From positions 1 through 22,085 of the IMG/VR virus record IMGVR_UViG_3300025418_000068: a DNA stretch of 22,085 nt, one strand, 5' to 3'. Below, in pieces: positions 522-22,085 of this stretch (position 1 is the first letter of the stretch; every line of letters starts with the position of its first letter). Made by a program: the position numbers and the translations under genes. The DNA is from a virus. Below the pieces are notes generated by a model that ran no database searches, was not told the DNA's origin, and saw nothing but the letters and a program-made list of their open reading frames with translations.

Positions 522-1171
522 AGGTCGAAATAGGCGACGCCACGCTATACCTTGGCGATTGCATCGATATTCTGCCAACCTTAGGCAAAGTCAATGCGGT
601 GATTACTGACCCGCCATATGGTTTGAATATCGCAAATCAGCCTTTTAAGCATCAAAGAATGAATGGTGCAGAAAAAAAAGATTGGGATGTTGCTGCCCCT
701 AACCAATCAATGCTTCAAACCATTTTAAACAAAAGTGAAAAAGCAATTTTGTGGGGTGGAAATTATTTTGAATTGCCGCCGTCAAGATGCTGGCTTGTTT
801 GGCATAAACCCGATGGGCCGCAATCTTTTAGTCGTGTTGAATTGGCATGGACAAACATGGATAAATTGGCTGGTTATTTTCAATGGACTATTGCTGCAAC
901 CAATCCGGAAAGAGTGGGTCATCCAACCCAAAAACCCCTTGCTTTGATGAAATGGTGTATTGGACAAGCTGGAAATCCGCAAACAATACTTGACCCATTC
1001 ATGGGCAGCGGGACAACAGGTGTGGCGGCGGTTCAAATGGGGCGCAAGTTTATTGGGATTGAACGTGAACCCAAATATTTCGACATTGCTTGCAAGCGAA
1101 TCGAACAAGCATCCAAACAGGTTGATATGTTTATTGAACCGCCCACACAAGTTCAAGAAAGTTTTTTATGA
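518..1171 (+). CDS. DNA methyltransferase (N6-adenine/N4-cytosine, DPPY type)
   Basis: This 217-aa SAM-dependent amino-methyltransferase modifies an exocyclic amino group of adenine (most likely, given DPPY) or cytosine in a specific DNA site. The catalytic motif DPPYG lies at residues 31-35. HPTQKP (135-140) and the SAM-binding motif [10 protein letters not shown] (159-168) lie near the C-terminus, which is the beta-group order (motif IV before motif I). The C-terminus continues with [10 protein letters not shown], the usual next strand of the SAM fold. At 217 aa the target recognition region (about 45-130) is small. Both ends overlap their neighbours by 4 nt (ATGA at 518 and 1168), so it is embedded in the terminase operon. 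No restriction endonuclease is visible nearby. It looks like an orphan phage methyltransferase that protects the genome from host restriction or marks the packaging region; that role is inference. Confidence 0.9.
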
Positions 1172-2829
1172 ACTGGCAAGACGGTATCCTTTACGCAATA
1201 CAGGTCGTCAAGGGCGAAATAAATGTTTGCAACGACATTCGCCTGACTTGCCAGCGGTTCATTAACCAGTACGAAAACGCCGAATGGGAATGGGTATTTG
1301 ACGAAGATTACCCACAACACGTTTTGGATTTTGCGTCGGTTCTGAAGCACACCAAAGGCCCGGACGCTGGCAAGCCCATCGTGCTGGAACCGTTCCAAAT
1401 CTTTTTAATTTGCGCGGTGTATGGTTTCCGTAGCAAGAAAGACAGAAACCGGCGCATGGTGACGGACGTTATCGTTTACATTCCACGCAAGGCCGGGAAA
1501 TCGACGCTAACGGCTATTTTGGCCCTATACGAACTGCAATTTGGCGAAGCTGGCGCAGAAGTGTTTACGTTGGCCACCAACCGGGAACAAGCCACCATTG
1601 TTTTTGATTCGGCCAAGGGCTTCATTGAAAAGATGCCATTGGAACTTGCCGGGCAATATGAAACGTCCAAATACGAAGTCAAAAAAGCTGGCGACAACCA
1701 ATCCATGTTTAAAGCGCTGTCGCGGGACACCAAGAAAACAGGCGACGGTAAAAACCCATCGTGCGTCATCATTGACGAAGCTGCTCAAATTGTTGACCGC
1801 AATTCTATCGAGGTTTTGCATTCCGGTATGGTGGCCCGGCGTAACCCGTTGCGAATCTACATTACAACCGCCAGCTTCACCAAAGACACCAAGTTCTACG
1901 AAGATTTGTCCATGTATCAATCCATGCTGACAGGCGAAGCGTCGGACAATCCCCGCTGGTTTGGCCTGATTTACTCGCTGGATGCCAAGGATGATTGGCG
2001 CGACCCGACGACATGGGCCAAGGCCAACCCGATGCATGGCATTAGCGTATTTGAAGAAGCCATTGCCCAACGCGCAGAGGAAGCAAAGCACAAACCGCAA
2101 GCCTTGAATGAGTTTTTGTGCAAGACCTTGAACATCTTTGTGTCGGCCAACACCGCATGGCTGGACCGCCGATTTTGGGACGAATGCAAAACCGACGTAA
2201 AACGTCAAGAACCCGAAGCCGTGTTCATTGGCTTTGACTTGGCTGCGACCCGTGACTTGAACGCCGTTTGCACTTTGAAGCGGTTTGGTGAATTGGACTA
2301 TGAGGCCGAATTCAAGTTCTTTTTACCAGAGGAAGGCTACAAGCTGATTCCCAAGCACTACGCCGACATTTTCCGGGTGGCCGTGTCATCGGGCATTCTG
2401 AAGCTGACCGAAGGCAACGTAATGGACGACCGCGAGATTTCCGAATACATCAAACAGCAATGCGAGAAATACGAAGTCAAGGAAGTTGGCTTTGATTCTT
2501 ACAATGCCGCCAGTTTGGTTGCCCGGTTATATGAAGCTGGAATCCCGGTCAAGAAAGTCGGCCAAAGCATGGGCGTTTTGTCCAATCCTTCCAAGCACGT
2601 CGAAAAGCTAATTTTGAACAAGCAAATCATGCACGACGGAAACCCATTTGTTGGCTGGCAATTGGGGAACTGCGAAGTCTATGAAGACGTCAATGGCAAC
2701 ATTAAGGTCAGAAAAAACGAAGCCGACAAAGCCGCCAAGGTGGACGGGATTGTTTCATTGATTATTGCGATGCACGCAAGCCTTGATAATCCTTCCATTT
2801 CTGGAAGTTACGGTTTCCGGTCCTTTTAA
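1168..2829 (+). CDS. terL: Terminase large subunit
   Basis: This 553-aa ATPase-nuclease pumps DNA into the prohead through the portal and cuts the concatemer. The N-terminal ATPase domain has a Walker A-like RKAGKS (107-112, the lysine-rich variant common in HK97-type terminases) and a Walker B with catalytic Glu, CVIIDEA (199-205). A coupling-type TT motif (YITTAS) follows at about 231-236. The C-terminal RNase H-like nuclease begins with [12 protein letters not shown], where Asp357 is a likely metal ligand. Further acidic positions are in VGFDSYNAA and in the [10 protein letters not shown] stretch near the end. This order fits the Terminase_1 (HK97/phage lambda-like) family, and the length is typical. 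The start overlaps the methyltransferase stop by 4 nt, and AAGAAAG just upstream can act as a ribosome site. Confidence 0.95.
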
Positions 2830-2861: not shown

Positions 2862-2882
2862 GTCAGAAAATTGGGGGAAAAC

Positions 2883-4331
2883 ATGGGCTTTTTAGACATT
2901 TTTAAGGGTAAAAAACCCGCACAAAACGAAAGTAACACCCTGTTTGGTCAGACCCAATTGGGCAACCAAATCTTGCGTCAGAACCAAAACGGTCAAACTG
3001 GCGCGAATTATCAGCTTTTATATGTCACGACATCCAGCACCACCAACGCTGGCCGTATTGTGGATATGTCCGTCTTATCGCGGAATTCCACCATCATGTC
3101 TTGCGTCAATTTGAAGTCGCGGGCGATGGCGCAATGCAACTTGAAGGTGATGTATAAAACCGACGACGGGGTATTTGAAGATGCTCTGAATTCGGAAAAC
3201 ATTGGTGCGCGGGACAAGAACAAAGCCAAACAAATAATGTCTTTGTTCCAAGAACCCAACAACTTCCAAAACCAATACGAATTTTGGTATCAGTTTGTGA
3301 TGTGGTACGAATTGGCTGGTGAAGTTTTCACTTTGCTATACCGCAAGAACCAAAAAGATTCGTTGCAAACGCCCATTGAAATGTATAACTTGGACGCGAC
3401 GCTAATCACGGTCCAAGCCAGCGAAACACGTTACCCAACCTACCGGGTATCGACTCCAACTTACGGGTTTAACAAAGACGAACCCTTGGCGTATTACCAA
3501 GTCATTCACACGACCGAATCGCCGTGGCAAGGTTCCGCAGGTTTTAACAAAGGCATTTTGGCAACCGAACTGGTGGCGCTGGATACCGACATCGATTTGT
3601 ATGCCAACTATGTGATGCAAAACGGCGCGAAGCCTTCCGGTTTGTTCCGCACCGACCAAGTGATTCCCGACGCCAAATATAAGGAAATCGCCCAACGCTT
3701 GAAGGAAGCGTGGTCAAGCATGACCGGAAGCCGCCCGACCGACTTGTCGAAGCCCGGCCAAGGTATGTTGCTGGACCAAGGCATGACCTTTGAAACGGTC
3801 AAAATGCTGACCTTGCAAGATGCCGACGCCGCCAAACTGAAAGAGCAAACCACAAAACGGATTTGTGCATTGTTCGGCGTTCCCGCCCAATTGCTTGGCT
3901 TGGATGTTGGCAAATACAACAACACCCAAACGCTGCTGGATGAGTTCTACAAAACCACCATGTACCCGATGATTATCAACATCGAGCAAAAGTTCAAAAA
4001 GGGTTTGTTGAACGGTTACCCCAATTTGTCTATCCGTTTCGATACCAAAGATTTCTTGAAGGGCGCGGCGCTGGACCAAATGAATTTTGTCACGGCTGGC
4101 GTGGCCGCTGGAATCTTTACACCGAACGAAGCCCGCGAATATCTGAATATGTGCAAAGTGGATGGCGGTGACGAATTGCCTAGTTTGGACGCCGCAAACA
4201 TTTCCAAAACCAACGTTCCAATCAGCGGCAAGCCAACGGCCAAAATCGACCCAATCCCCGGCTCAAGTCCGCAAGATACGGGCGGTGGCGGTGGCAACCA
4301 ACGTTCCAAAATGAACATTGGCAAGACATGA
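2883..4331 (+). CDS. Portal protein (HK97 family)
   Basis: This is the 482-aa ring protein at one vertex of the capsid, through which DNA enters and leaves and to which terminase and connector proteins bind. The sequence has the typical HK97/lambda-type portal layout. An N-terminal arm is followed by the conserved SVLSRNSTIMSCVNLKSRAMA region, in which each subunit begins its wing fold. A segment with NGAKPSG follows, and later TTKRICALFGVPAQLLG and the N-T-Q-T-L-L-D-E-F segment, which form the stem and clip region of Phage_portal proteins. The C-terminus is low in complexity (Gly stretch, basic end), as is common. ATG 2883 is chosen over an in-frame TTG at 2871 because GGGGG (2873-2877) sits at the right distance. 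The stop overlaps the next small ORF by 4 nt. Confidence 0.93.
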   Translation: MGFLDIFKGKKPAQNESNTLFGQTQLGNQILRQNQNGQTGANYQLLYVTTSSTTNAGRIVDMSVLSRNSTIMSCVNLKSRAMAQCNLKVMYKTDDGVFEDALNSENIGARDKNKAKQIMSLFQEPNNFQNQYEFWYQFVMWYELAGEVFTLLYRKNQKDSLQTPIEMYNLDATLITVQASETRYPTYRVSTPTYGFNKDEPLAYYQVIHTTESPWQGSAGFNKGILATELVALDTDIDLYANYVMQNGAKPSGLFRTDQVIPDAKYKEIAQRLKEAWSSMTGSRPTDLSKPGQGMLLDQGMTFETVKMLTLQDADAAKLKEQTTKRICALFGVPAQLLGLDVGKYNNTQTLLDEFYKTTMYPMIINIEQKFKKGLLNGYPNLSIRFDTKDFLKGAALDQMNFVTAGVAAGIFTPNEAREYLNMCKVDGGDELPSLDAANISKTNVPISGKPTAKIDPIPGSSPQDTGGGGGNQRSKMNIGKT

Positions 4332-4534
4332 TTGCCGCACATAAAATTGTGCGTATCATGGCGGCACAAATCCATCAAAGCCGTGTTATATTAACGCCAC
4401 ATGAGAAAACCCCTACAATACAAGACATTAACTTGGCTATAAACAACGGGGTTGTTCATGAAAAATCTGAATCTGATTTGCGAAGCGAAATTAAGCCTAA
4501 AAAAAGAGGCAGACCAAAAAAGTCCGTCGGGTAA
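4328..4534 (+). CDS. Small AT-hook-like protein, uncertain
   Basis: A 68-codon frame starts at an ATGA overlap with the portal stop and ends inside the protease gene, overlapping it by 77 nt in another frame. The C-terminus reads KPKKRGRPKKSVG, which contains an AT-hook core (RGRP flanked by Lys), a minor-groove DNA-binding motif. The rest is not recognised. In its favour are the coupled start and the meaningful C-terminus. Against it are the long overlap, codons such as AGA, ATA and CCT that neighbouring genes use rarely, and a promoter-like sequence within it. It may be a real DNA-binding accessory protein, or the region may simply be a leader for the protease and capsid genes. Confidence 0.4.
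   Translation: MIAAHKIVRIMAAQIHQSRVILTPHEKTPTIQDINLAINNGVVHEKSESDLRSEIKPKKRGRPKKSVG
4336..4353. repeat. 6-bp inverted repeat (hairpin) after portal
   Basis: CGCACA (4336-4341), a 6-nt TAAAAT loop and TGTGCG (4348-4353) form a perfect short hairpin or operator-like dyad 5 nt after the portal stop. No T-run follows, so it is not an intrinsic terminator. It could be an RNA processing or stability element, or a protein site for the promoter downstream. Confidence 0.3.
4391..4419 (+). promoter_or_regulatory. Sigma70-like promoter before protease and capsid genes
   Basis: TTAACG (4391-4396, 4 of 6 to the -35 consensus) and TACAAT (4414-4419, 5 of 6 to the -10 consensus) are separated by the ideal 17 nt. 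Transcription would start near 4427, about 30 nt ahead of the protease ATG at 4458, where GGGG (4448-4451) is a good ribosome site. The location before protease and capsid, and the terminator after the first capsid gene (6638-6662), would define a strongly expressed protease-capsid unit. Pattern match only. Confidence 0.4.
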
Positions 4535-5282
4535 CATTTCCGCAGTCGTGACAACTTGGGGTCCCCGCGAAGGCGAAGATGGCCGCAAGTTCAACTATCA
4601 ACCCGAAGGCTTCAAAGAATGGGCGCAAGCCTTCAAAGAAGCTGGCAAACCCCTGCCAATGTTTTTGAACCATAACGATATGGGAATGCCCGTAGGCGAA
4701 TGGTACGAATTCAACTTTGAGAAAACCGGAATGACCGCTGAAGGTCGTTTGTTCACCAACACCGTTGGCGGTTCTGACCTATACAACATCATGAAAGATT
4801 CGCCCGACCTGTTTGGCGGCGTTTCGGTTGGCGCTTACGCTGACGAAGCCCAAATGGTGGACGCTGACGGTAACGTTATCAACCAATCCATGTCGTGGGG
4901 CAACGACGATGATGATGACGACGACAGCGACGAACAATACTTCCAAATTACCAAAGGCGGCTTGCGTGAAGTGTCGGTGGTCATGTACCCCAACAACACC
5001 AAAGCCCAAGTCACCCGCCTTGAGTATTTCGACGTGGACGGACAACCGAACCCACGCATTATCGAGAAAGTCTTGCGTGATGCTGGCCTTTCGCGTAAAG
5101 ATGCGACCACCGCATCTTCAGTCTTGAAGAAAGTTCTGGAACAACGTGATGTTGTCCAAAAACCAATTCAAGTAACCCCAACCCCGAGCGATTCGGATGC
5201 GGTGGTCGAAGCCGACGACATTTTGCGAGTTCTTGAAGAACGCGAATTGTTGAAAGCATTATCTAAACGATTGAAAGGTTAA
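4458..5282 (+). CDS. Prohead maturation protease (HK97 type)
   Basis: This 274-aa serine protease of the herpesvirus assemblin-like fold (Phage prohead protease, peptidase family S78/U35 type) cleaves the scaffold part of the capsid protein during maturation. The pattern matches the family: PMFLNHND with catalytic His72, then GGVSVGA with the nucleophile Ser123, then GLREVSVVMYPNN (about 168-180), whose Glu is usually conserved. An unusual run of seven Asp residues (150-156) lies in the loop before the last strand. The C-terminal 90 residues are charged and probably act as an internal scaffold-like or regulatory tail. Start 4458 is preferred to TTG 4452 because of the GGGG at 4448-4451. The major capsid gene follows 4 nt downstream, as in HK97. 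Confidence 0.9.
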   Translation: MKNLNLICEAKLSLKKEADQKSPSGNISAVVTTWGPREGEDGRKFNYQPEGFKEWAQAFKEAGKPLPMFLNHNDMGMPVGEWYEFNFEKTGMTAEGRLFTNTVGGSDLYNIMKDSPDLFGGVSVGAYADEAQMVDADGNVINQSMSWGNDDDDDDDSDEQYFQITKGGLREVSVVMYPNNTKAQVTRLEYFDVDGQPNPRIIEKVLRDAGLSRKDATTASSVLKKVLEQRDVVQKPIQVTPTPSDSDAVVEADDILRVLEERELLKALSKRLKG

Positions 5283-5286
5283 TATC

Positions 5287-6630
5287 ATGTCTCTCGACAA
5301 AATCACCGAAAAGCTGGATGCAATTGAAGCGCAAAACGTCGCCAAGATTGAAGAAATCAAGACCGAAGCAATTGCCAAGGTTGAAGAAACCAAGGTTGAA
5401 CTGATTGAAAAAGTCGCGGCTTTGGAAGCCCGTATTTCTGAAATCAATTCGTCCGCATCGTTCATCAAACCCGCGAAAACCGTTCGTGGCGATGTGAACA
5501 AATCGGTTCGTGAACAACTGTCCAAGTTCTACAAAAAGGGCAAGGCTTACGAAAAAGAAGTCAAAATCTTTGAAAGCACCGACCAATACGACGCGTACAT
5601 GAAGGAAAGTTCCGCGCTGACAGGCGGCGGCGCTGGCGTTGGTGGCCGTACTGCATACGACCCCGTGTTCCACACCTTGCGTCTGATTAACCCCCTGCGC
5701 GGTGTTTCTCGCAATGTCTCGACTGAAGGTTCGACCTATCAGTTTCGCGCTAAAGTCGGCAACGCTGGCGCACAATGGGGCTATGCAATTCAGAACAACG
5801 GTTCGCCCACTACTGAAAACACCAATATCTGGCAATTGACCTTGCAAGATTTGAACGTTCAGTTCCCCATCCGTACCGCTGCTTTGGACGACATCGATGG
5901 TTTGGAAGCCAACGTTGTTGACGATATGTTGATGGAATTCTCGCAAGTTGAAGGCCAGTCGATGATTTCCAACAACGACCAAACCGACACGCCCAACACA
6001 TACGGCGGCACAAACGGTTTGCGCGGTTTGAATCAATACCCCGGCGCTAATGGCTCTTATACTGGCGGCACGATTTCTGTCGGCGCTTTCGGTTCAAGCG
6101 GCACAGGCTCTAGTTCTGGTTTGCACAGCATCGCTACATACGACCAATTGACCACCAACGGCGCTGGTGTTGGTGCTGCTAACGTGACGTATCAAGACGT
6201 TATCAATTTCGTGTATGCCTTGCCGCAACAATACTGGAACCCATCGACCAAGTTCTTGGTTTCGCCTTTGATGTTGTCTCAAATCCGCGGTTTGAAAGAC
6301 AGCAACGGCACACCAATCTTTGAACGTATGTCGCCTTTGGTTTATGACGGTATCGTCGGCCAACTGTTGGGCTTTGACGTGGTGGTGAACAAGTATGTTG
6401 ATTCTCCTGATTCGTCTACCAGCACCCCCGGCACTACCAGCTTGTATCCCATGTATTTTGGCGATTGGCAACGTGGTCACACCATCGTGGACCGTCTGAA
6501 CATGGTTTTGCGTCGTTATGACCAAACCCTGCCCGGCTACATCACGTTCTTCGGTGAAAAGCGTCTTTGCACTAGCGTGGTGGACCCCTTGTCTATCATC
6601 CGCTATCGTTCAACCGCTACTGCGACCTGA
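5287..6630 (+). CDS. Major capsid protein 1 with delta domain (HK97 fold)
   Basis: This 447-aa protein should form the hexamers and pentamers of the head. Residues 1-60 are Glu/Lys/Ala-rich and predicted coiled coil, followed by a charged stretch to about 108. This is the delta (scaffold) domain that the upstream protease removes in HK97-type phages. The conserved shell begins at about Leu111 (LTGGGAGVGGR) and continues with INPLRGV, a WGY motif, the spine-helix region (PIRTAALDDIDGLEANVVDDML), NTYGGTNGLRGL, and a C-terminal GYITFFGEKRLC segment. The Ala/Gly/Ser-rich inserts near 260-290 resemble surface loops. The ribosome site AAAGG lies just upstream. A paralog lacking the delta domain follows at 6686, and an intrinsic terminator lies between them, so this copy is likely the abundant one. 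Confidence 0.92.
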   Translation: MSLDKITEKLDAIEAQNVAKIEEIKTEAIAKVEETKVELIEKVAALEARISEINSSASFIKPAKTVRGDVNKSVREQLSKFYKKGKAYEKEVKIFESTDQYDAYMKESSALTGGGAGVGGRTAYDPVFHTLRLINPLRGVSRNVSTEGSTYQFRAKVGNAGAQWGYAIQNNGSPTTENTNIWQLTLQDLNVQFPIRTAALDDIDGLEANVVDDMLMEFSQVEGQSMISNNDQTDTPNTYGGTNGLRGLNQYPGANGSYTGGTISVGAFGSSGTGSSSGLHSIATYDQLTTNGAGVGAANVTYQDVINFVYALPQQYWNPSTKFLVSPLMLSQIRGLKDSNGTPIFERMSPLVYDGIVGQLLGFDVVVNKYVDSPDSSTSTPGTTSLYPMYFGDWQRGHTIVDRLNMVLRRYDQTLPGYITFFGEKRLCTSVVDPLSIIRYRSTATAT

Positions 6631-6637
6631 TAAAACG

Positions 6638-6662
6638 GTGGGGCTTAATGCCCCACTTTTTT
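6638..6662 (+). terminator. Intrinsic terminator between the two capsid genes
   Basis: GTGGGGC (6638-6644), a 5-nt TTAAT loop and GCCCCAC (6650-6656) form a perfect G+C-rich 7-bp stem. It is followed at once by six T residues (6657-6662), with a further run of T at 6668-6676. This is a classical rho-independent terminator 7 nt after the first capsid stop codon. It would leave the downstream genes with less transcript unless readthrough or antitermination occurs. Confidence 0.9.
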
Positions 6663-6685
6663 AACAATTTTTTTTTGGGATTAAC

Positions 6686-7720
6686 ATGACCGCCAAACAA
6701 CATATTCTCGAAGCCATCCGCAAATCTTTGAAAAAAGAAGAACGGGTAACGGTAAACCTTAACGAAGCGTCTGGCATTACCGGTTCGGGTTCTGGTGTCG
6801 GCGGTCGTGTTATCTATGACGATGCCTTTGCTGCCCTACGCTATGCCAATCCTTTGCGAACTGCTGGTGTTCGTGAAATTACAACTATTGGTTCAGACCA
6901 AGCGTTTGTGGTTAAAACTGGTAACGTAACCAACCCAACCAATCCTTGGGGTTATACCTTCACGCCAAACGTTGGCACACCTAACACCGCCACATCGTTC
7001 TGGCAATTGCCCGTCCAAGTCGTCGCGGCTCAAGTTCCCGTCCGCACCGCCGTTCTAAGCGACGTAAACTATTTGAACGAAACATTGCTGACCGACATCG
7101 GTTTGGAATTCGCGCAACAAGAATCCTATTCCCAATGGTTGAACAACGACCAATCGGGAACCACCACGACTACATACGGCGGCACTTTGGGCTTGCGTGG
7201 CTTGAACTATTATCCCGGCTCGACAAGCGCCGCATCGTTCGGCACAAACGGTTCTGGCCCTACCAACGGCATTCACACCATGCTGCAAGTGGCATCGACC
7301 ACCAGCGGCACTTTGGTTTATAACGACATGGCCGCCGCCAACGCTGCCTTGCCGCCACAGTATTACAACCTGCCAACCACGGCTTGGGTAATGCACCCCA
7401 ACACCATCGCATTCTTGCGTGAACTGAAAGATGGTCAAGGGATGCCGCAATTCTTGGAATTGGGCGCAAAAGACGGTTTTGCCGTGGGCAACATTTTCGG
7501 CCACGCCGTGATTGCCAACCCTTACATGGACCAAATCGGTTCGGGCAAGTTCCCCATCTATTTGGCCGCATGGGAAAATTTCTACACAATTGCGGACCAT
7601 GAAGAAATGTCGTTCCAATGGTTCGAGCAAACCGCGCCCGGTTACTTGACCCTGTTCGCAGAAAAGCGCCTTTGCAGCACCATCCGCGACGTTTTCGCTG
7701 GTGTTCGTATCGCAACCTAA
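6686..7720 (+). CDS. Major capsid protein 2, paralog without delta domain
   Basis: This 344-aa protein is clearly homologous to the upstream capsid protein. Matching blocks run in order: ITGSGSGVGGR (31-41), YANPLR, WGYTF, FWQLPVQVVAAQVPVRTAVLSD, an NNDQS...TYGG...LGLRGLNYYPG block, LRELKDGQGMPQF, and GYLTLFAEKRLC. The first 28 residues replace the roughly 108-residue scaffold region of the first copy, so it has no evident delta domain. It could be a second shell subunit that co-assembles with the first, a minor vertex or portal-side subunit, a regulator of head size, or an alternative capsid. The DNA differs at most third positions, so the two copies are old. GGGA (6677-6680) is a ribosome site 5 nt from the ATG. 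It lies after a strong terminator, so lower expression is expected. Confidence 0.9.
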   Translation: MTAKQHILEAIRKSLKKEERVTVNLNEASGITGSGSGVGGRVIYDDAFAALRYANPLRTAGVREITTIGSDQAFVVKTGNVTNPTNPWGYTFTPNVGTPNTATSFWQLPVQVVAAQVPVRTAVLSDVNYLNETLLTDIGLEFAQQESYSQWLNNDQSGTTTTTYGGTLGLRGLNYYPGSTSAASFGTNGSGPTNGIHTMLQVASTTSGTLVYNDMAAANAALPPQYYNLPTTAWVMHPNTIAFLRELKDGQGMPQFLELGAKDGFAVGNIFGHAVIANPYMDQIGSGKFPIYLAAWENFYTIADHEEMSFQWFEQTAPGYLTLFAEKRLCSTIRDVFAGVRIAT

Positions 7721-7729
7721 GAGGCGGTT

Positions 7730-8401
7730 ATGCCATTAGACAGCTACACCAACGGCCCATATCTAGGCACATCCCGCAACCCGTTCAGCTATGAAAAAGT
7801 TGAACAAATTTCGCGGGATACATCCACCGAATGGTTGACGCTGACCCAAATCACCGACCAATTAAATTTGTTTGGTGATACGTCCCAAGATTCCTATTTG
7901 CAAGGTCTTGAATTAGCCACGCGCATGGCGATTGAAGATTTCTTGGGCATGGCAATCTTTGCTACCCGGTATCGTTGCTATTACGGCGCATTGAATGGGA
8001 TGTCGGGAACGCAAGTCAATCTGGATTTGCCCGAAGTCACTCAAACCACCGTTGGCGGCGTTGTTGGTGTCACCATCAATTCGGTTGGCTATTGGGATTC
8101 AAGCACCCCGCCCGTTTTCACGCTGGTGGATTCATCGACTTATTTTTACGATGCCACAGGCAACAAAGTCGTTGTCAACAGCATCCCGAACGAAGTCAAT
8201 CAAAACATTTCAAACCCTATCGTGGTGGATTACACGCAAGCGGCCAACCCGCTGGCGGCTTACCCTGTAATTCAACAAGCTGGTTTGTTATTGCTGACGC
8301 ACCTATACAACAACCGTTCAAACACGACCATGACCAAACTGAATGAAATTCCGTATGGCGTGGCCGCATTGTTGCGACCTTATAAACCGCTGGTGATGTA
8401 A
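7730..8401 (+). CDS. Head-tail connector (gp6-like adaptor)
   Basis: This 223-aa protein probably forms the ring that binds under the portal. The N-terminal half has the helical pattern of gp6/gp15-type connectors: STEWLTLTQITDQLNL, then a long helix with TRMAIEDFLGMAIFATRYRCYY, followed by a Pro-rich beta region. The C-terminal helix ends with a basic patch (EIPYGVAALLRPYKP), which matches the usual 'head-tail connector' ending. The position directly after the capsid genes and before a head-closure-sized gene agrees. AGAGG just upstream is a good ribosome site. The stop overlaps the next start as TAATG. Confidence 0.75.
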   Translation: MPLDSYTNGPYLGTSRNPFSYEKVEQISRDTSTEWLTLTQITDQLNLFGDTSQDSYLQGLELATRMAIEDFLGMAIFATRYRCYYGALNGMSGTQVNLDLPEVTQTTVGGVVGVTINSVGYWDSSTPPVFTLVDSSTYFYDATGNKVVVNSIPNEVNQNISNPIVVDYTQAANPLAAYPVIQQAGLLLLTHLYNNRSNTTMTKLNEIPYGVAALLRPYKPLVM

Positions 8402-14587: not shown

Positions 14588-17500
14588 ATGAAAATTGGCG
14601 GTTTTTTCCAATCATTGCTAAGTCTTGCGGTCATTGTCACCGCGGCATACTTTACTGGCGGCGCTTCATTAGCCTATGACATGGCAGCTACATTTGCCGT
14701 TTCGATGGTGGTGTCTCGCATCTTTGCCCCCAACGTTCCGCAATCTCAACAAAACAACATTCGCCAGCAAGTCCCGCCCGACCCAACCGCGGGCATCCCT
14801 TTGGTTTATGGCGACGCATTCACCGGGGCGCGTTTCGTTGATGCGGTCTTGACCACCGACCAAACAAAAATGTATTACGTCATGGCGATTTCGTGCATTT
14901 CGCCCAACGGTCAATTTTTCTATGACACGACAAAGTTTTATTATCAAGACCGCCTGATTACGTTTGACAGCACCGACCAAACCAAAGTCGTCAGCTTGAC
15001 CGATGCGGCTGGCAACGTGGACACCACCATCAGCGGCCATTTGTATATTGCACTTTACAAATCCAGCGCCACCGGAACGATTACGCCCGTAAACACATCG
15101 AATCTGCCATCGGATATCATGTCCACGGCAAACGGCGTTCCATCGGGCCAACAATGGGCATCGAGCGGTCGTCAAATGAACGGCACAGCGTTTGCGGTCG
15201 TCACCTTGGTCTATAACGCCAATTCCGCGGGAACGACAAGCCTTCAACCCATCACCTTCCACGTCAGTCATTATTTGAATGGCACAGGTTGCGCGAAACC
15301 CGGTGACGTTTGGTATGACTACCTGACAAATACCGTATACGGCGGCGCGATTGACCCGTCTTTTGTGGATTCAACATCGGCCACCGCGCTGAATACTTAT
15401 TCCGACGTCTTGATTCCATACACCGATTACAACGGTTATTCTCAAACAATTCCGCGCTATCGGTTCAACGGCGTCTTGGACACCGGGCAAACCATCCTCA
15501 ACAACGTGGACATCATGATGACTTGCTGCGATTGCTGGCAAGCCTACAATTCGCCCACGGGTTTATGGTCGGTGGTGATTAACCAAGTTATATCGCCCAC
15601 ATTCAGTTTTGACGATACCAACATTGTTGGCGCAATTTCCGTCGGCGCTTTAGACATCACGCAACAAGCCAACCAAGTTGAAGCCAAGTTCAACGATGCC
15701 ACGAACCGCGACCAACCCGGCTATGTGAATTTACAAACCCCGAGCGGTTTGCTGTATCCCAACGAACCCGTCAACAAATACACGGTTTCTTATGACCTGA
15801 TAAATTCCAGCGTCACCGCCCAATACCTTGCAAACCGTGTTTTGGAACAAAACCGCCAAGACTTGATTGTCAGTTTTGAATCAACCTATGCCGGGATTCA
15901 AGTGCAAGCTGGCGATGTCGTCACCGTCACCAATTCAAATTACGGTTGGACCAATCAGCAATTCCGCGTGACGCAAGTCAAAGAATTGGCCGCACCGGAT
16001 GGCACTTTGTCCGCATCGTTCCAAATGAATTCGTATAACCCCGCCGTTTACGCCACGGGAAACATTACGCAATTCCATCCCACGCCCAACAGCGGCTTGG
16101 CAAATCCGCAATACTTTTCGGCGTTGTCAGCACCCACGGTTACCAGCACAAGCCCAACGGCCACCATCCCATCGTTCAATGTGGCTTGCACTATTCCCGC
16201 CAGCGGCCAAGTCACCGAAGTCACGTTGTTTTATACGACCTATTCCAGCCCATCCGCATCGCAATGGGTGGCATGGGGTTCGCAAACATCGTCAAATTCG
16301 CTGGCATTTACGCCATCGTCCACGGTGTCGTTCATCGATATTAGTTTGCCGACCCAAACTTATTATTTTGCGTTCATTGTCTCGAACAACAACAGTTCGT
16401 CACTTTTGTCGCCTTTGTCGGCATCTTTGAATTGGAACCCAAACCCAACCACGTCGGCGGTGGCTGGCACGTTCTTGGGGACGTTTTCACCCGTTGTTAC
16501 TCAAGTTCCACGAACTGGCGGCGTCACGCCCGTTTTCACGGGTATTGTTCCAAAACTTTACGGTTCGGCTGCTGGCGGCGCAATTGACTTTGTTACATCG
16601 CAAACCGACACCGATTCGGCTTTTGTGAATAACACTTGGCGCATTGGCGGTTCGGCCACCACAGGTTATGGCGACATCACCACCACGGGCGGCTTGACCC
16701 TTGGTTCAATCACCGATGGCGGCACTTACGCGCAATGGGCATCGGTCACGGGCATGTCGTCGTCCCCCGCGTTGCTTAACGTTCCAATTCGCTACAAATC
16801 GGCATTGGGCGTCATTACTCAAGCGGCCACGGCCACCACCCAATTTATCTTTTTGGACCCCGGCCCACAGGGAACCAGCGGTTCAAACGGCAACCAATAC
16901 GCCACGGTTTATTTGTATCAATGGAATACGACAACCCCATCCAATCCAACTGGCACGTCGTCCTATAACTGGTCCACGGGCGTCAATTCGTCTTATACCG
17001 GAACGGGCGGGTGGTCAACGACTATTCCGACAAATCCCGGCACACCGTTGATTCAGCTTTGGACAGCGGCGCTTCAAATTGTCGCCGTTGGTGGAACGTC
17101 CACCACATCGGTCAGTTGGGCCAGCGGTTATTCGATTTCGGCTTTGACGCTGAATGGCGCAAATGGTGCAAATGGAACAAACGGTTCACCCGGCGCAAAT
17201 GGCTTGCAAACTGCATCGCCTACCGTTTACCAATGGGCAATTACCATTCCAAGCGGCCCGACGGGTTCATCAACCTACACTTGGGCCAGTTCATCGTTTA
17301 CGCCTACCCCAAGCGGCTGGACGCAAACACCCGGTGCATCGCCAAGTCCCGGTTTCACTTTGTGGGCGGCAAAGGTCAACATTTCCGATTCGGCCACGGC
17401 CACCACGACTTCAATCAATTGGACGTTGGCAAGCATTCTTGGCGCTGGTTATGCCGGAACAAACGGCGCAAATGGAACAAACGGGACAAATGGCACAAAC

Positions 17501-19036
17501 GGAACGAACGGTCTAAACGGCACACGAACCGCCGTCATCACCATGTATCAATGGGCGGTGTCTGCCCCGTCTTTGTTCCCGTCCGGCACATCCACCTACA
17601 CTTGGGCAAATGGAACGTTTACCGCGCCAGCAACGCCCAATGGCTGGACTATTTACCCCGGCGCACCCGTGGCGGGTTACATCCTTTACGCCACCGACAT
17701 GGTTTACGCTGACACCAGCACCAGCGCAACATCGTCGATTGTTTGGTCGTCCACAATTGCTTACCCAAGCGGCGCGGCTGGAACAAACGGCGCTAATGGT
17801 TCACCCGGCGCACCCGGCACAAACGGAACCAATGGCACAAACGGCTTAAATGGAACCCGCACAGCGTTCTTGCAGCTTTACCAATGGGCATACAGCACCC
17901 CCACGGTGTTTCCAAGCGGTTCATCGGTATATACATGGTCCAACGCAAGTTACACCTTGCCAAGTTCGCCAAATGGTTGGTCATTGTTGCCCGGACCGCC
18001 TGTTGTCGGTTACACGCTATACGCTTGCGAAGTTACATACGCGGACACCAACACCACGGCCACTTCGACAATTGGTTGGACCACTTCAACGGCGTTTGCG
18101 TTGGGCGCTGCTGGCACAAACGGCGCAAATGGAACAAACGGCACGAACGGGACGAACGGCACAAATGGTATTGATGGATTGTCGGCTCGCATTGCTTACG
18201 CCGTTTCCAATTCATCGTCGCTGAGTTCAAGCCCTTCAACCTATACGACCACAGGCGCTGGCGCTTTTCCACCCTACAACACATGGGGCGGCGCTGAAAC
18301 ATGGCAAGCCACACCCGCAACGTATGGCGCTGGACAAGCCCTATTCCAAACGAATGGCATATATAACCCCGGCACATCCCAAACGGTTTGGACCGCGCCT
18401 TATTTGTCGAATTTGAAGGTCGGTTCGTTGTCGGCCATCACCGCCAACACGGGCAATCTGACGGTTACAGGCACATTCCAAGCGAACACCGCCGCAATCA
18501 GCGGCACGTCCATGACGGGTTCGGGTATGTATCTGGACCAAACTGGTGACTTTGCATTAGGCAATTCCAGCACCAACATTTCGTTCAATGGTTCGCAAAT
18601 GACCTTGAACGGGAACGTGGTTGCTACCAACAACATCAATTCAAATGCGGTAACAAACATTTTAGGCAATTCAACTGCTGGCAGCGGCACTCTTACGACC
18701 ACGCCAACCACTTTTGTTTCTTTGCCTTTTACAACTTCCGGCGGTAATGTTGTTGTGACACTTAGCGCCATTGCCACGTTGCAAAACACATCCTTATCAT
18801 CCATTAGCGATGAAATTGTAGTGTCGGTTTATAGAAATTCAACTTTATTGTATTCGGCTGGCATTAACATGAATGCTCAACCTAGTCAATCTACGTCATC
18901 AGTTCCCGGAGCAACTTTTGTTGACAACCCGCCATCAGGAACCAATACTTACGTTTTTAAAGCCAACAGTATCTACGGCTCATATCCTTTTACTATTAGT
19001 GGATGTTATTTAGTTTTGCAAGAATTTAAGCGGTAA
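14588..19036 (+). CDS. Tail tip host-specificity protein (J-like) with collagen-like linkers
   Basis: This 1482-aa protein is the likely tip and receptor-binding subunit. Residues 1-60 hold a hydrophobic tail (GFFQSLLSLAVIVTAAYFTGG), then IPLVYGDAFTG, the usual start of J-like proteins. About 310-460 match the phage tail protein domain (PF13550-like), with a CCDCW segment, a SVGALDITQQANQVEAKFND stretch and a QAGDVVTVTNSNYGW segment. Residues 769-1175 hold four related modules of about 86 aa with motif YQW...GxSxYxW...GW...P...G..LWA..., separated by collagen-like Gly-Xaa-Asn runs at 759-768, 857-872, 957-978, 1065-1089 and 1176-1197. After about 1270 comes a TipJ-like fibre region, then a beta-sandwich ending in a YLVLQEFKR tail. 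The last 125 codons have AT-rich, unusual codon use, suggesting exchange of receptor-binding ends. Confidence 0.88.
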   Translation: MKIGGFFQSLLSLAVIVTAAYFTGGASLAYDMAATFAVSMVVSRIFAPNVPQSQQNNIRQQVPPDPTAGIPLVYGDAFTGARFVDAVLTTDQTKMYYVMAISCISPNGQFFYDTTKFYYQDRLITFDSTDQTKVVSLTDAAGNVDTTISGHLYIALYKSSATGTITPVNTSNLPSDIMSTANGVPSGQQWASSGRQMNGTAFAVVTLVYNANSAGTTSLQPITFHVSHYLNGTGCAKPGDVWYDYLTNTVYGGAIDPSFVDSTSATALNTYSDVLIPYTDYNGYSQTIPRYRFNGVLDTGQTILNNVDIMMTCCDCWQAYNSPTGLWSVVINQVISPTFSFDDTNIVGAISVGALDITQQANQVEAKFNDATNRDQPGYVNLQTPSGLLYPNEPVNKYTVSYDLINSSVTAQYLANRVLEQNRQDLIVSFESTYAGIQVQAGDVVTVTNSNYGWTNQQFRVTQVKELAAPDGTLSASFQMNSYNPAVYATGNITQFHPTPNSGLANPQYFSALSAPTVTSTSPTATIPSFNVACTIPASGQVTEVTLFYTTYSSPSASQWVAWGSQTSSNSLAFTPSSTVSFIDISLPTQTYYFAFIVSNNNSSSLLSPLSASLNWNPNPTTSAVAGTFLGTFSPVVTQVPRTGGVTPVFTGIVPKLYGSAAGGAIDFVTSQTDTDSAFVNNTWRIGGSATTGYGDITTTGGLTLGSITDGGTYAQWASVTGMSSSPALLNVPIRYKSALGVITQAATATTQFIFLDPGPQGTSGSNGNQYATVYLYQWNTTTPSNPTGTSSYNWSTGVNSSYTGTGGWSTTIPTNPGTPLIQLWTAALQIVAVGGTSTTSVSWASGYSISALTLNGANGANGTNGSPGANGLQTASPTVYQWAITIPSGPTGSSTYTWASSSFTPTPSGWTQTPGASPSPGFTLWAAKVNISDSATATTTSINWTLASILGAGYAGTNGANGTNGTNGTNGTNGLNGTRTAVITMYQWAVSAPSLFPSGTSTYTWANGTFTAPATPNGWTIYPGAPVAGYILYATDMVYADTSTSATSSIVWSSTIAYPSGAAGTNGANGSPGAPGTNGTNGTNGLNGTRTAFLQLYQWAYSTPTVFPSGSSVYTWSNASYTLPSSPNGWSLLPGPPVVGYTLYACEVTYADTNTTATSTIGWTTSTAFALGAAGTNGANGTNGTNGTNGTNGIDGLSARIAYAVSNSSSLSSSPSTYTTTGAGAFPPYNTWGGAETWQATPATYGAGQALFQTNGIYNPGTSQTVWTAPYLSNLKVGSLSAITANTGNLTVTGTFQANTAAISGTSMTGSGMYLDQTGDFALGNSSTNISFNGSQMTLNGNVVATNNINSNAVTNILGNSTAGSGTLTTTPTTFVSLPFTTSGGNVVVTLSAIATLQNTSLSSISDEIVVSVYRNSTLLYSAGINMNAQPSQSTSSVPGATFVDNPPSGTNTYVFKANSIYGSYPFTISGCYLVLQEFKR
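16862..18178 (+). repeat. Module array with collagen-like linkers in tail tip gene
   Basis: Four related module-coding blocks lie at 16892-17155, 17204-17455, 17522-17779 and 17855-18112. The collagen-like segments are at 16862-16891, 17156-17203, 17456-17521, 17780-17854 and 18113-18178. Within the linkers, GGAACAAACGG-like 9-12-mers recur many times and alternate Gly-Thr-Asn, Gly-Ala-Asn and Gly-Ser-Pro. Modules C and D, and the longer linkers, are the most alike, so the array probably grew by unequal exchange within linkers. Confidence 0.85.
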
Positions 19037-19634: not shown

Positions 19635-22085
19635 ATGCAATTAAATTTAACAGTCCAAAACGCAAACAGCATCGTTTGCCAAGTTGTTCCCACGCCCACG
19701 CAAACCATCAACATCGACCGCGGCGTCACGGGCAACGGCATCGCATCGATTGTTCCCGTCACCATCGCAACGTTCCAATACTTGCAAATTACTTACACCA
19801 ATGGAACGGTGGTTGACGTTGGGCCATTGACATCCACGGCTTACACGGCCACATCGCCCATTGTTATCACGGGCAATACCATTTCGCTGTCTACGGTTCA
19901 ACCGCAACAAGGCGGCACAGGCGCGGCGGGAACGCTGACGGGTTACGTTTACGGCAACGCCACGGGCGCGATGACCGCATCAACGACCATTCCCAACACG
20001 GCCATCACAGGCTTGGGTACGATGTCCACGCAAAATGCCAACAATGTGGCGATTACAGGCGGGACAATCCAAGGCGTTGCGCTGACCATTGACAGCATTC
20101 AAAGCACCCCTATCGGCTCGACCACGCCATCCACAGGCGCGTTCACCACGCTATCGGCATCCAGCACCGTTTCTGGCACAGGTTTTTCCACTTATTTGGC
20201 AAGTCCACCCGCAATCGGCGGCACAGCGGCCAACACCGCAAAGTTCACCACGCTGGCAGTCACGGGCCTGACGGGTTACACATACGCCAACGGTTCTGGC
20301 AATTTGACCGCATCGACCACGATTCCGAATGCTGGTTTGGCGAATTCAAGCCTTACAGTCAATGGCGTTTCGATTGCCCTTGGCGCGTCGGGAACCGTTA
20401 CGGCGGCGGCTGGCACTTTGACCGGAACAACCTTGAATTCCACGGTGACGGGTTCGTCATTGACAAGCGTCGGCACTATCACGACGGGAGTTTGGAATGC
20501 GACGCCAATCACCAACAGTTTCTTGGCGAATTCTTCTATTACGGTCAATGGTACTAGCATTGCTTTGGGTGGCAGCGGAACGATTACTGCCGCGACTACC
20601 AGCACCCTTACTATTGGTTCTGGATTATCTGGCGGCTCATTCAACGGCTCTACCCCTATAACCATCGCAAACACGGGCGTTTTGACGTTTTCCGGTGGAA
20701 CGACAGGGCTAACCCCCAATACGGCCACAAACGGCGCGATTACCCTTGCCGGAACGCTTGCAGTCGCCAACGGTGGAACGGGCGTCACATCATCGAGCGG
20801 CGCGAATTCGGTTGTTTTGCGCGATGCAAATGGCAACGTCACGACCAATTGCCTGTTTGAAGGCTACACAAGCCAAGCGGCGGGAACGACCATTACGCTG
20901 ACGGCATCGTCGGTTCAGAATTGGGCCATTACGAGTTCGGGCGGTCAAACTATCCAATTGCCCAATGCGACCACGCTACCCGCTGGCGCGACTTTCACGT
21001 TCAACAACAATCAATCGAGCGGCACAATCGTTGTCCAAAACAATTCGGCCACCACCATCGCCACGGTGCAATCGGGTTCGTATATCACGGTTGTTTTGCT
21101 GAATAACTCCAGCGCGGCGGGTTCGTGGGATTTCCACAATTCGCCACCTTCCAATGCGTCTTGGTCAACCAATACGCTGAATTGGGCGGGTTCTTATACC
21201 AACGGCACATGGAACGGCAACGCTGTCGGCGCAATTTACGGCGGCACAGGTCAAACCGCAGTCATCACAGGTGATTTGCTTTACGGTTTGGCATCGAACA
21301 CTTGGTCGCGGCTTGGCGTTGGCTCTACGGGTCAAATCTTGCGCGTTGCTGGCGGTGTTCCGACTTGGGGCGTTGACTACACCGGAACCGTCACCAGCGT
21401 TGCGGCTACCGTTCCGTCATTCTTGTCGATTTCTGGTTCGCCTATTACAACCAGCGGCACATTGGCAATCGGTTATTCCGGGACAGCTTTGCCCACGGCC
21501 AACGGCGGGACGGGTTTAACCAGCTTCACGGCAAACCAAGTTTTCTACGCTTCCAGCACATCGGCATTTGCACAATCGGCCAACCTGACATTTGACGGCA
21601 CGAACTTGGGATTGGCTGGCGGCACAGCCAACGGTGTGGCCTATTTGAACGGCTCTAAGGTGCTGACTACGGGGTCTGCGCTGACGTTTGATGGGACATA
21701 TTTTTATGCAAATGGTTTGCGGCTTAGTGGTTCTGATGCAGGCAACACAATTTACAAATCTAGCGGAAATTTATTTATAACGGCAGACAATGGAACGCTT
21801 GCTTTACAAGCAAACACAAGTAATCCAATTGCGTTTTATTTAAACAGCTCCGAACAAATGCGCCTGAACAGCACAGGTCTGGGTATTGGGACAAGTTCGC
21901 CAGGGTCAAAATTGGCCGTAATTGGTTCAGCAAACATGGCGTACTTCTACGATGGAAGTACATCTGATTTTCAGATTCAAGCGGTTTCAAGCAGAACCGA
22001 AATCGGCCCTACAACAAACACACCGCTGTCATTTAAGACCAACAACACAGAACGTGCCCGTATAGACTCCAGCGGGAATTTGTTG
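19635..22085 (+). CDS. Tail fibre protein, partial (C-terminus beyond window)
   Basis: The ATG directly follows the stop of the previous gene, and 817 codons are open to the window end without a stop. The N-terminal ~90 residues are beta-rich and probably attach to the tail tip. From residue 93 the sequence is dominated by short beta repeats with GGTG motifs (near residues 93, 380, 536 and 624), repeated TASTTIPN, TVNG(V/T)SIALG blocks and W-N-A-T-P turns. This is typical of trimeric beta-helix fibres. The last 150 residues have SEQMRLNSTGLGIGTSSPGSKL and NTERARIDSSGNLL, a signature that in related fibres precedes a C-terminal self-cleaving chaperone (Peptidase_S74), which is probably beyond the window. 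No clear ribosome site is seen; coupled translation is likely. Confidence 0.88.
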   Translation, partial: MQLNLTVQNANSIVCQVVPTPTQTINIDRGVTGNGIASIVPVTIATFQYLQITYTNGTVVDVGPLTSTAYTATSPIVITGNTISLSTVQPQQGGTGAAGTLTGYVYGNATGAMTASTTIPNTAITGLGTMSTQNANNVAITGGTIQGVALTIDSIQSTPIGSTTPSTGAFTTLSASSTVSGTGFSTYLASPPAIGGTAANTAKFTTLAVTGLTGYTYANGSGNLTASTTIPNAGLANSSLTVNGVSIALGASGTVTAAAGTLTGTTLNSTVTGSSLTSVGTITTGVWNATPITNSFLANSSITVNGTSIALGGSGTITAATTSTLTIGSGLSGGSFNGSTPITIANTGVLTFSGGTTGLTPNTATNGAITLAGTLAVANGGTGVTSSSGANSVVLRDANGNVTTNCLFEGYTSQAAGTTITLTASSVQNWAITSSGGQTIQLPNATTLPAGATFTFNNNQSSGTIVVQNNSATTIATVQSGSYITVVLLNNSSAAGSWDFHNSPPSNASWSTNTLNWAGSYTNGTWNGNAVGAIYGGTGQTAVITGDLLYGLASNTWSRLGVGSTGQILRVAGGVPTWGVDYTGTVTSVAATVPSFLSISGSPITTSGTLAIGYSGTALPTANGGTGLTSFTANQVFYASSTSAFAQSANLTFDGTNLGLAGGTANGVAYLNGSKVLTTGSALTFDGTYFYANGLRLSGSDAGNTIYKSSGNLFITADNGTLALQANTSNPIAFYLNSSEQMRLNSTGLGIGTSSPGSKLAVIGSANMAYFYDGSTSDFQIQAVSSRTEIGPTTNTPLSFKTNNTERARIDSSGNLL
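20337..20594 (+). repeat. 62-residue internal repeat in tail fibre
   Basis: Two copies of about 24 codons (20337-20408 and 20523-20594), 186 nt apart, both encode LANSS(L/I)TVNG(V/T)SIALG(A/G)SGT(V/I)TAA. The second copy uses different, more AT-rich codons, so the duplication is old or was assembled from different sources. Confidence 0.8.

Follow-up and report, generated by a model that had tools for sequence, protein, structure and literature searches.

We analysed a 22,085-base IMG/VR fragment of a tailed phage (referred to here as the window) and found two adjacent, paralogous genes for HK97-type capsid proteins, MCP1 and MCP2. By analogy with the shell of phage T4, MCP2 is probably a penton protein similar in role to T4 gp24, which would have evolved independently of it. 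The head genes of the window begin with terminase and portal; the S78 protease comes next, then MCP1 and MCP2, and a head-tail adaptor and more connectors follow (Table 1). The protease gene starts with TTG at 4452 or with ATG at 4458, and the list of open reading frames in the window gave no evidence of a separate scaffold gene between the protease and MCP1.

Table 1. Positions of the head genes and related features in the window, with the evidence for each
Feature	Position	Strand	Evidence
Terminase large subunit	1168..2829	+	Pfam TerL_nuclease E 4e-40, TerL_ATPase E 1e-26
Portal protein	2871..4331	+	Pfam Phage_portal E 2e-59
Prohead protease, S78 type	4452..5282	+	Pfam Peptidase_S78 E 2e-7; phrog head maturation protease E 8e-9
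MCP1, HK97-fold capsid protein with delta domain, 447 aa	5287..6630	+	Pfam Phage_capsid E 3e-28
MCP1 delta (scaffold) region, residues 1-107, to predicted cleavage at Glu107	5287..5607	+	Glu107 invariance, motif census, model helix 3-55
Terminator-like hairpin between MCP1 and MCP2, followed by TTTTT	6637..6657	+	Hairpin scan
MCP2, HK97-fold capsid paralogue without delta domain, 344 aa	6686..7720	+	Pfam Phage_capsid E 5e-17
MCP2 N-terminal peptide, residues 1-27, to predicted cleavage at Glu27	6686..6766	+	Glu27 invariance, motif census
Head-tail adaptor	7730..8401	+	phrog_442 head-tail adaptor E 1e-11

Several other frames were observed in the window. A 68-aa ORF at 4328-4534 overlaps the start of the protease gene in a different frame, and its basic C-terminus is AT-hook-like (Pfam AT_hook E 0.07, below the cut-off). 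Further downstream, positions 14588-19036 encode a tail protein of 1482 aa, whose GTNGTNG repeats are collagen-like (Pfam Collagen E 4e-9). Another repetitive frame of at least 817 aa begins at 19635 and is still open at the window end (22085).

The preliminary description had proposed two tandem HK97-type capsid paralogues downstream of a single protease, only the first of them with a delta domain. Both reading frames were found where it had placed them. BLASTP aligned MCP1 and MCP2 over 327 columns with 37% identity (164 bits, E 2e-51), and the shared sequence blocks it had listed are all present in the same order. The two proteins each exceed the curated cut-off of Pfam Phage_capsid (PF05065) and are matched by phrog_10, ‘major head protein’. 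Ahead of the shared part there are about 107 residues in MCP1 and about 27 in MCP2, and a helix is predicted at residues 3-55 of MCP1, within the delta region. The single Peptidase_S78 gene lies just before MCP1. Taken together, these results confirm that the observation is real and far from chance.

To compare the folds, we modelled both proteins with AlphaFold2, using alignments of relatives run without the P19250A rows. Both models are of moderate confidence, and their E-loop parts are poor, with low confidence. The MCP2 model (mean pLDDT 68) is HK97-type, and in the PDB it was matched best by the capsid of RcGTA (E 3e-17) and by HK97 proheads. The MCP1 model (pLDDT 57) matched the same kinds of chains, including the RcGTA capsid at E 1.6e-14. 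Foldseek assigned a probability of 1.00 to both models against RcGTA and HK97 capsid chains. MCP2 is thus predicted to keep the HK97 fold, the loss of which had been raised in the preliminary description as a point against its being a shell protein. We also found that a loop near the C-terminal third is mostly 3-7 residues long in MCP2, compared with 13-17 in MCP1. The shorter loop of MCP2 would suit a tighter ring, if the loop faces the capsomer axis.

Next to the N-terminal regions, both proteins carry a candidate processing site. Glu107 of MCP1 and Glu27 of MCP2 are each invariant in a 34-sequence alignment. A motif census found [LIMVF]-x-E/[AS] (the stroke marks the predicted cut) in 92 of 108 MCP1 sequences and in all 101 distinct MCP2 sequences, where it invariably stands 12 residues ahead of GGR; in this census the Glu was picked by script, and the claim of invariance rests on the two 34-sequence alignments. 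Since the candidate motif is shared by MCP1 and MCP2, we infer from the sequences that the one S78 protease would trim both at the predicted sites. The candidate motif is T4-like. The proteases of T4 and of giant phages cleave after Glu at comparable motifs (PMC5694885).

To determine how widely the pair occurs, 377 loci were fetched from five IMG/VR scans, one assembled-genome scan and a phage collection, some of these loci being overlapping views of a single contig. MCP1 and MCP2 are adjacent and in the same order in at least 352 of them, representing at least 283 distinct pair sequences. Each scan covered at most 80 loci, and the clade is larger than this sample. The pair is an invariant trait of a large clade, which could not be seen from the single sequence behind the preliminary description. 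The assembled-genome scan contributed five metagenome-assembled loci and no clear prophage. Among the matches listed, the remaining members of the clade either carry frame-split copies or are truncated by the end of the contig where the missing gene would lie. MCP2 had appeared to be absent from ten loci; tblastn found it in all ten, and the apparent absence was traced to start-codon and classification artefacts. Among the loci listed, the only ones with a single capsid gene and room for a second belong to five outgroup phages of about 20-23% identity, fetched for comparison. The longest contigs of relatives measure 36-41 kb in most cases, and one reaches 76 kb.

The pair is also present in a cultured Methylophilaceae phage, P19250A (38.7 kb), in the same order and with the same intervening hairpin, at 62% (MCP1) and 51% (MCP2) identity. 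Its gene 0005 bears the annotation ‘gene transfer agent capsid protein’ and its gene 0006 that of a ‘hypothetical protein’, and their paralogy is absent from the record. A Lake Baikal study describes P19250A as a siphovirus of LD28 (PMC7678222); the original paper is given as Moon et al. 2017 in the reference to it in PMC9004378. The window has an N6_N4 DNA methylase gene (518-1171; Pfam E 3e-22) directly upstream of the terminase, where no corresponding gene is annotated in P19250A. Within an incomplete coverage of the literature, no published account of a pair of this kind in small siphophages was found, and paper searches for two capsid paralogues of the MCP1/MCP2 type in other phages returned T4-type cases only.

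The mature parts of 36 pairs were used to build a tree, in which the MCP1 and MCP2 groups are split by one branch with 100/100 support. A single duplication is thus older than the sampled clade. The tree is unrooted: rooting with four outgroup capsids failed, with very long branches and an outgroup that joined inside an unresolved MCP1. Mean identity is 73% among MCP1 proteins, 61% among MCP2 proteins and 42% between MCP1 and MCP2 within a locus, and MCP2 evolves about 1.5 times faster than MCP1. Both genes are under strong purifying selection (median dN/dS 0.10 for MCP1 and 0.126 for MCP2). The MCP1 and MCP2 halves of the tree differ in part: in one locus (L028), MCP1 groups with those of L044 and L053 and MCP2 groups with that of the window, and the MCP1 and MCP2 distance matrices correlate only moderately (r 0.52). 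This observation suggests recombination between the MCP1 and MCP2 genes.

We also examined the signals that may set the amount of MCP2. A strong hairpin was found right 3′ of the MCP1 stop codon in 206 of 207 distinct loci, among the loci listed, and the sole exception has an HNH gene inserted there. Since the spacer sequences are too variable to align, each spacer was folded singly; folding energy is on average 3.2 SD below dinucleotide shuffles after MCP1, compared with 0.5 SD after MCP2. At least four T occur in the eight bases after the hairpin in 73 of the 105 examined. About a third of the hairpins therefore have no good T-tract, and not all of them resemble standard terminators. The predicted median anti-Shine-Dalgarno pairing is -3.4 kcal/mol for MCP2, -5.6 for MCP1 and -5.0 for the following gene, medians that ignore kinship and use starts picked partly by their Shine-Dalgarno match. 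The hairpin before MCP2 and the weaker predicted ribosome binding together point to MCP2 being made in smaller amounts than MCP1.

We considered whether the hairpin had evolved to set the dosage of MCP2. This idea is weakened by four distant single-capsid relatives (L225, L226, L227 and L228), in which a strong hairpin likewise stands directly behind the capsid gene. The hairpin is thus probably an old post-capsid device, and the relevant point is the location of MCP2 beyond it. It may be a general device that raises capsid protein over the products of downstream genes.

The MCP1-MCP2 spacer is, in addition, a site where genes for probable homing endonucleases insert. One of them encodes an HNH protein (Pfam E 4e-5) and is present in L043, L044, L046, L133, L134, L213, L215, L363 and L365. 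The spacer of L067 and L230 holds a different ORF, GIY-YIG-like by eye and with no Pfam match. Several of these insertion loci are views of the same contigs.

The best known precedent for a minor subunit co-assembled into the shell comes from T4. There, gp24 forms the 11 pentameric vertices, probably arose by duplication of the hexon protein gp23, and loses a propeptide of 10 residues, compared with 65 in gp23 (PMC9958956; PMC13185644). A recent review ties the division between hexon and penton genes to the larger genome of T4 (PMC13185644). Like gp23 and gp24 with the protease gp21, the genes of the window place adjacent paralogous HK97-fold shell proteins downstream of portal and protease. 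The predicted propeptide is likewise long in the hexon-type protein and short in the second, and the predicted cleavage motif has Glu ahead of the cut. However, MCP1 and MCP2 are about 42% identical, whereas gp23 and gp24 share about 20%. The scaffold is the delta domain of MCP1, whereas T4 has separate core proteins, and the phages with MCP1 and MCP2 are siphophages with about a quarter of the T4 genome size.

Descent of MCP1 and MCP2 from gp23 and gp24 was considered as an explanation of this likeness. When PDB sequences were searched with profiles (E <= 0.1), the matches were RcGTA and other capsids encoded by a single gene, and no T4 chain was among them. MCP1 and MCP2 are also far more alike than either is to any T4 protein, and the phages at about 20-23% identity have one capsid gene. 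Given these results, the pair does not appear to descend from the T4 pair, and its duplication seems to be independent. Of the solved structures, the RcGTA capsid (Rcc01687), which has the HK97 fold, is most closely related to both proteins, in sequence profile as well as in fold, and HK97 gp5 carries a delta domain as MCP1 does. Unlike the window, RcGTA and HK97 each use a single capsid gene to make hexamers and pentamers. Agrobacterium phage Milano, which has an HK97-fold shell and a further abundant head protein, was rejected as a second example of a two-protein shell: gp9 makes up every capsomer, pentamers and hexamers alike, and the minor protein of that phage is no paralogue but a decoration of jellyroll fold (PMC10491603).

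Taken together, the predicted fold, the candidate processing site and the obligate linkage to MCP1, all of which are kept, make it most likely that MCP2 is a co-assembled, processed, minor shell subunit. With no delta domain and no separate scaffold gene, MCP2 should not build shells alone. Of the three options offered in the preliminary description, ‘special vertex subunit’ fits best, because MCP2 is without its own scaffold, keeps the predicted protease site and has a lower apparent expression. In the model that we propose, MCP1, with its own scaffold (delta) domain, would build the prohead hexamers, and the less abundant MCP2, encoded in the same gene cluster, would be specialised for the pentameric vertices and would co-assemble with MCP1. 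A T4-like second protein confined to the pentamers would amount to about 55 copies. The single S78 protease would cut both proteins at a site of the same type, so that MCP1 would lose about 107 residues and MCP2 about 27, and the shell would expand after cleavage. We infer the cleavage, the low copy number and the pentamer location of MCP2; the low-dosage evidence fits any minor role and does not single out the pentamers.

We therefore weighed other roles for MCP2. There is a small but real chance that MCP2 is a minor shell subunit without being the protein of all pentamers, and that it occupies instead certain hexamer positions, only the vertex of the portal, or a single cap, where it might set the size or shape of the shell. 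The evidence for a processed, co-assembled, low-dosage paralogue fits it equally well. However, the T4 precedent is for pentamers, and the paper searches gave no such arrangement in tailed phages. We know of no tailed phage with a paralogue only at selected hexamers, the portal vertex or one cap. It is doubtful that MCP2 marks a single vertex (that of the portal) or one cap, or sets size or shape, a role that would be new to tailed phages. It is improbable that MCP2 is a head-bound HK97-fold protein outside the lattice, or one acting only in assembly, for example as a trigger or delivery factor for the protease. The loss of the delta domain and the faster evolution of MCP2 would agree with such a role, and attachment of T4 gp24 is thought to trigger the protease (PMC9958956). 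But MCP2 keeps the shared capsid blocks throughout and is predicted to have the capsid fold, which would hardly be needed off the lattice.

That MCP2 forms an alternative complete capsid, used under other conditions or by another genetic element, is very improbable. MCP2 is a full-length protein with a predicted HK97 fold, as this reading expects. However, it has neither a delta domain nor an accompanying scaffold gene, it lies beside MCP1 with one shared protease in every complete locus listed, and its predicted dosage is low; a complete capsid of MCP2 alone, without a scaffold, is unlikely. Finally, MCP1 or MCP2 is split between frames in a small number of loci, but the pair occurs in a cultured phage and in at least 352 loci from many samples, its duplication is older than the clade sampled and the median dN/dS of MCP2 is 0.126, so that a decaying relic or an assembly artefact can practically be dismissed.

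A shell split between hexon and penton genes is a well-known peculiarity of T4. If the penton role of MCP2 is confirmed, small siphophages of the type known from freshwater Methylophilaceae would have acquired this division on their own and kept it across a clade that counts hundreds of contigs. Since the two paralogues are still about 42% identical, their comparison could show which changes make a capsid protein pentamer-only. The ‘hypothetical’ gene of P19250A is a capsid protein gene, and the availability of this phage in culture makes the penton reading directly testable.
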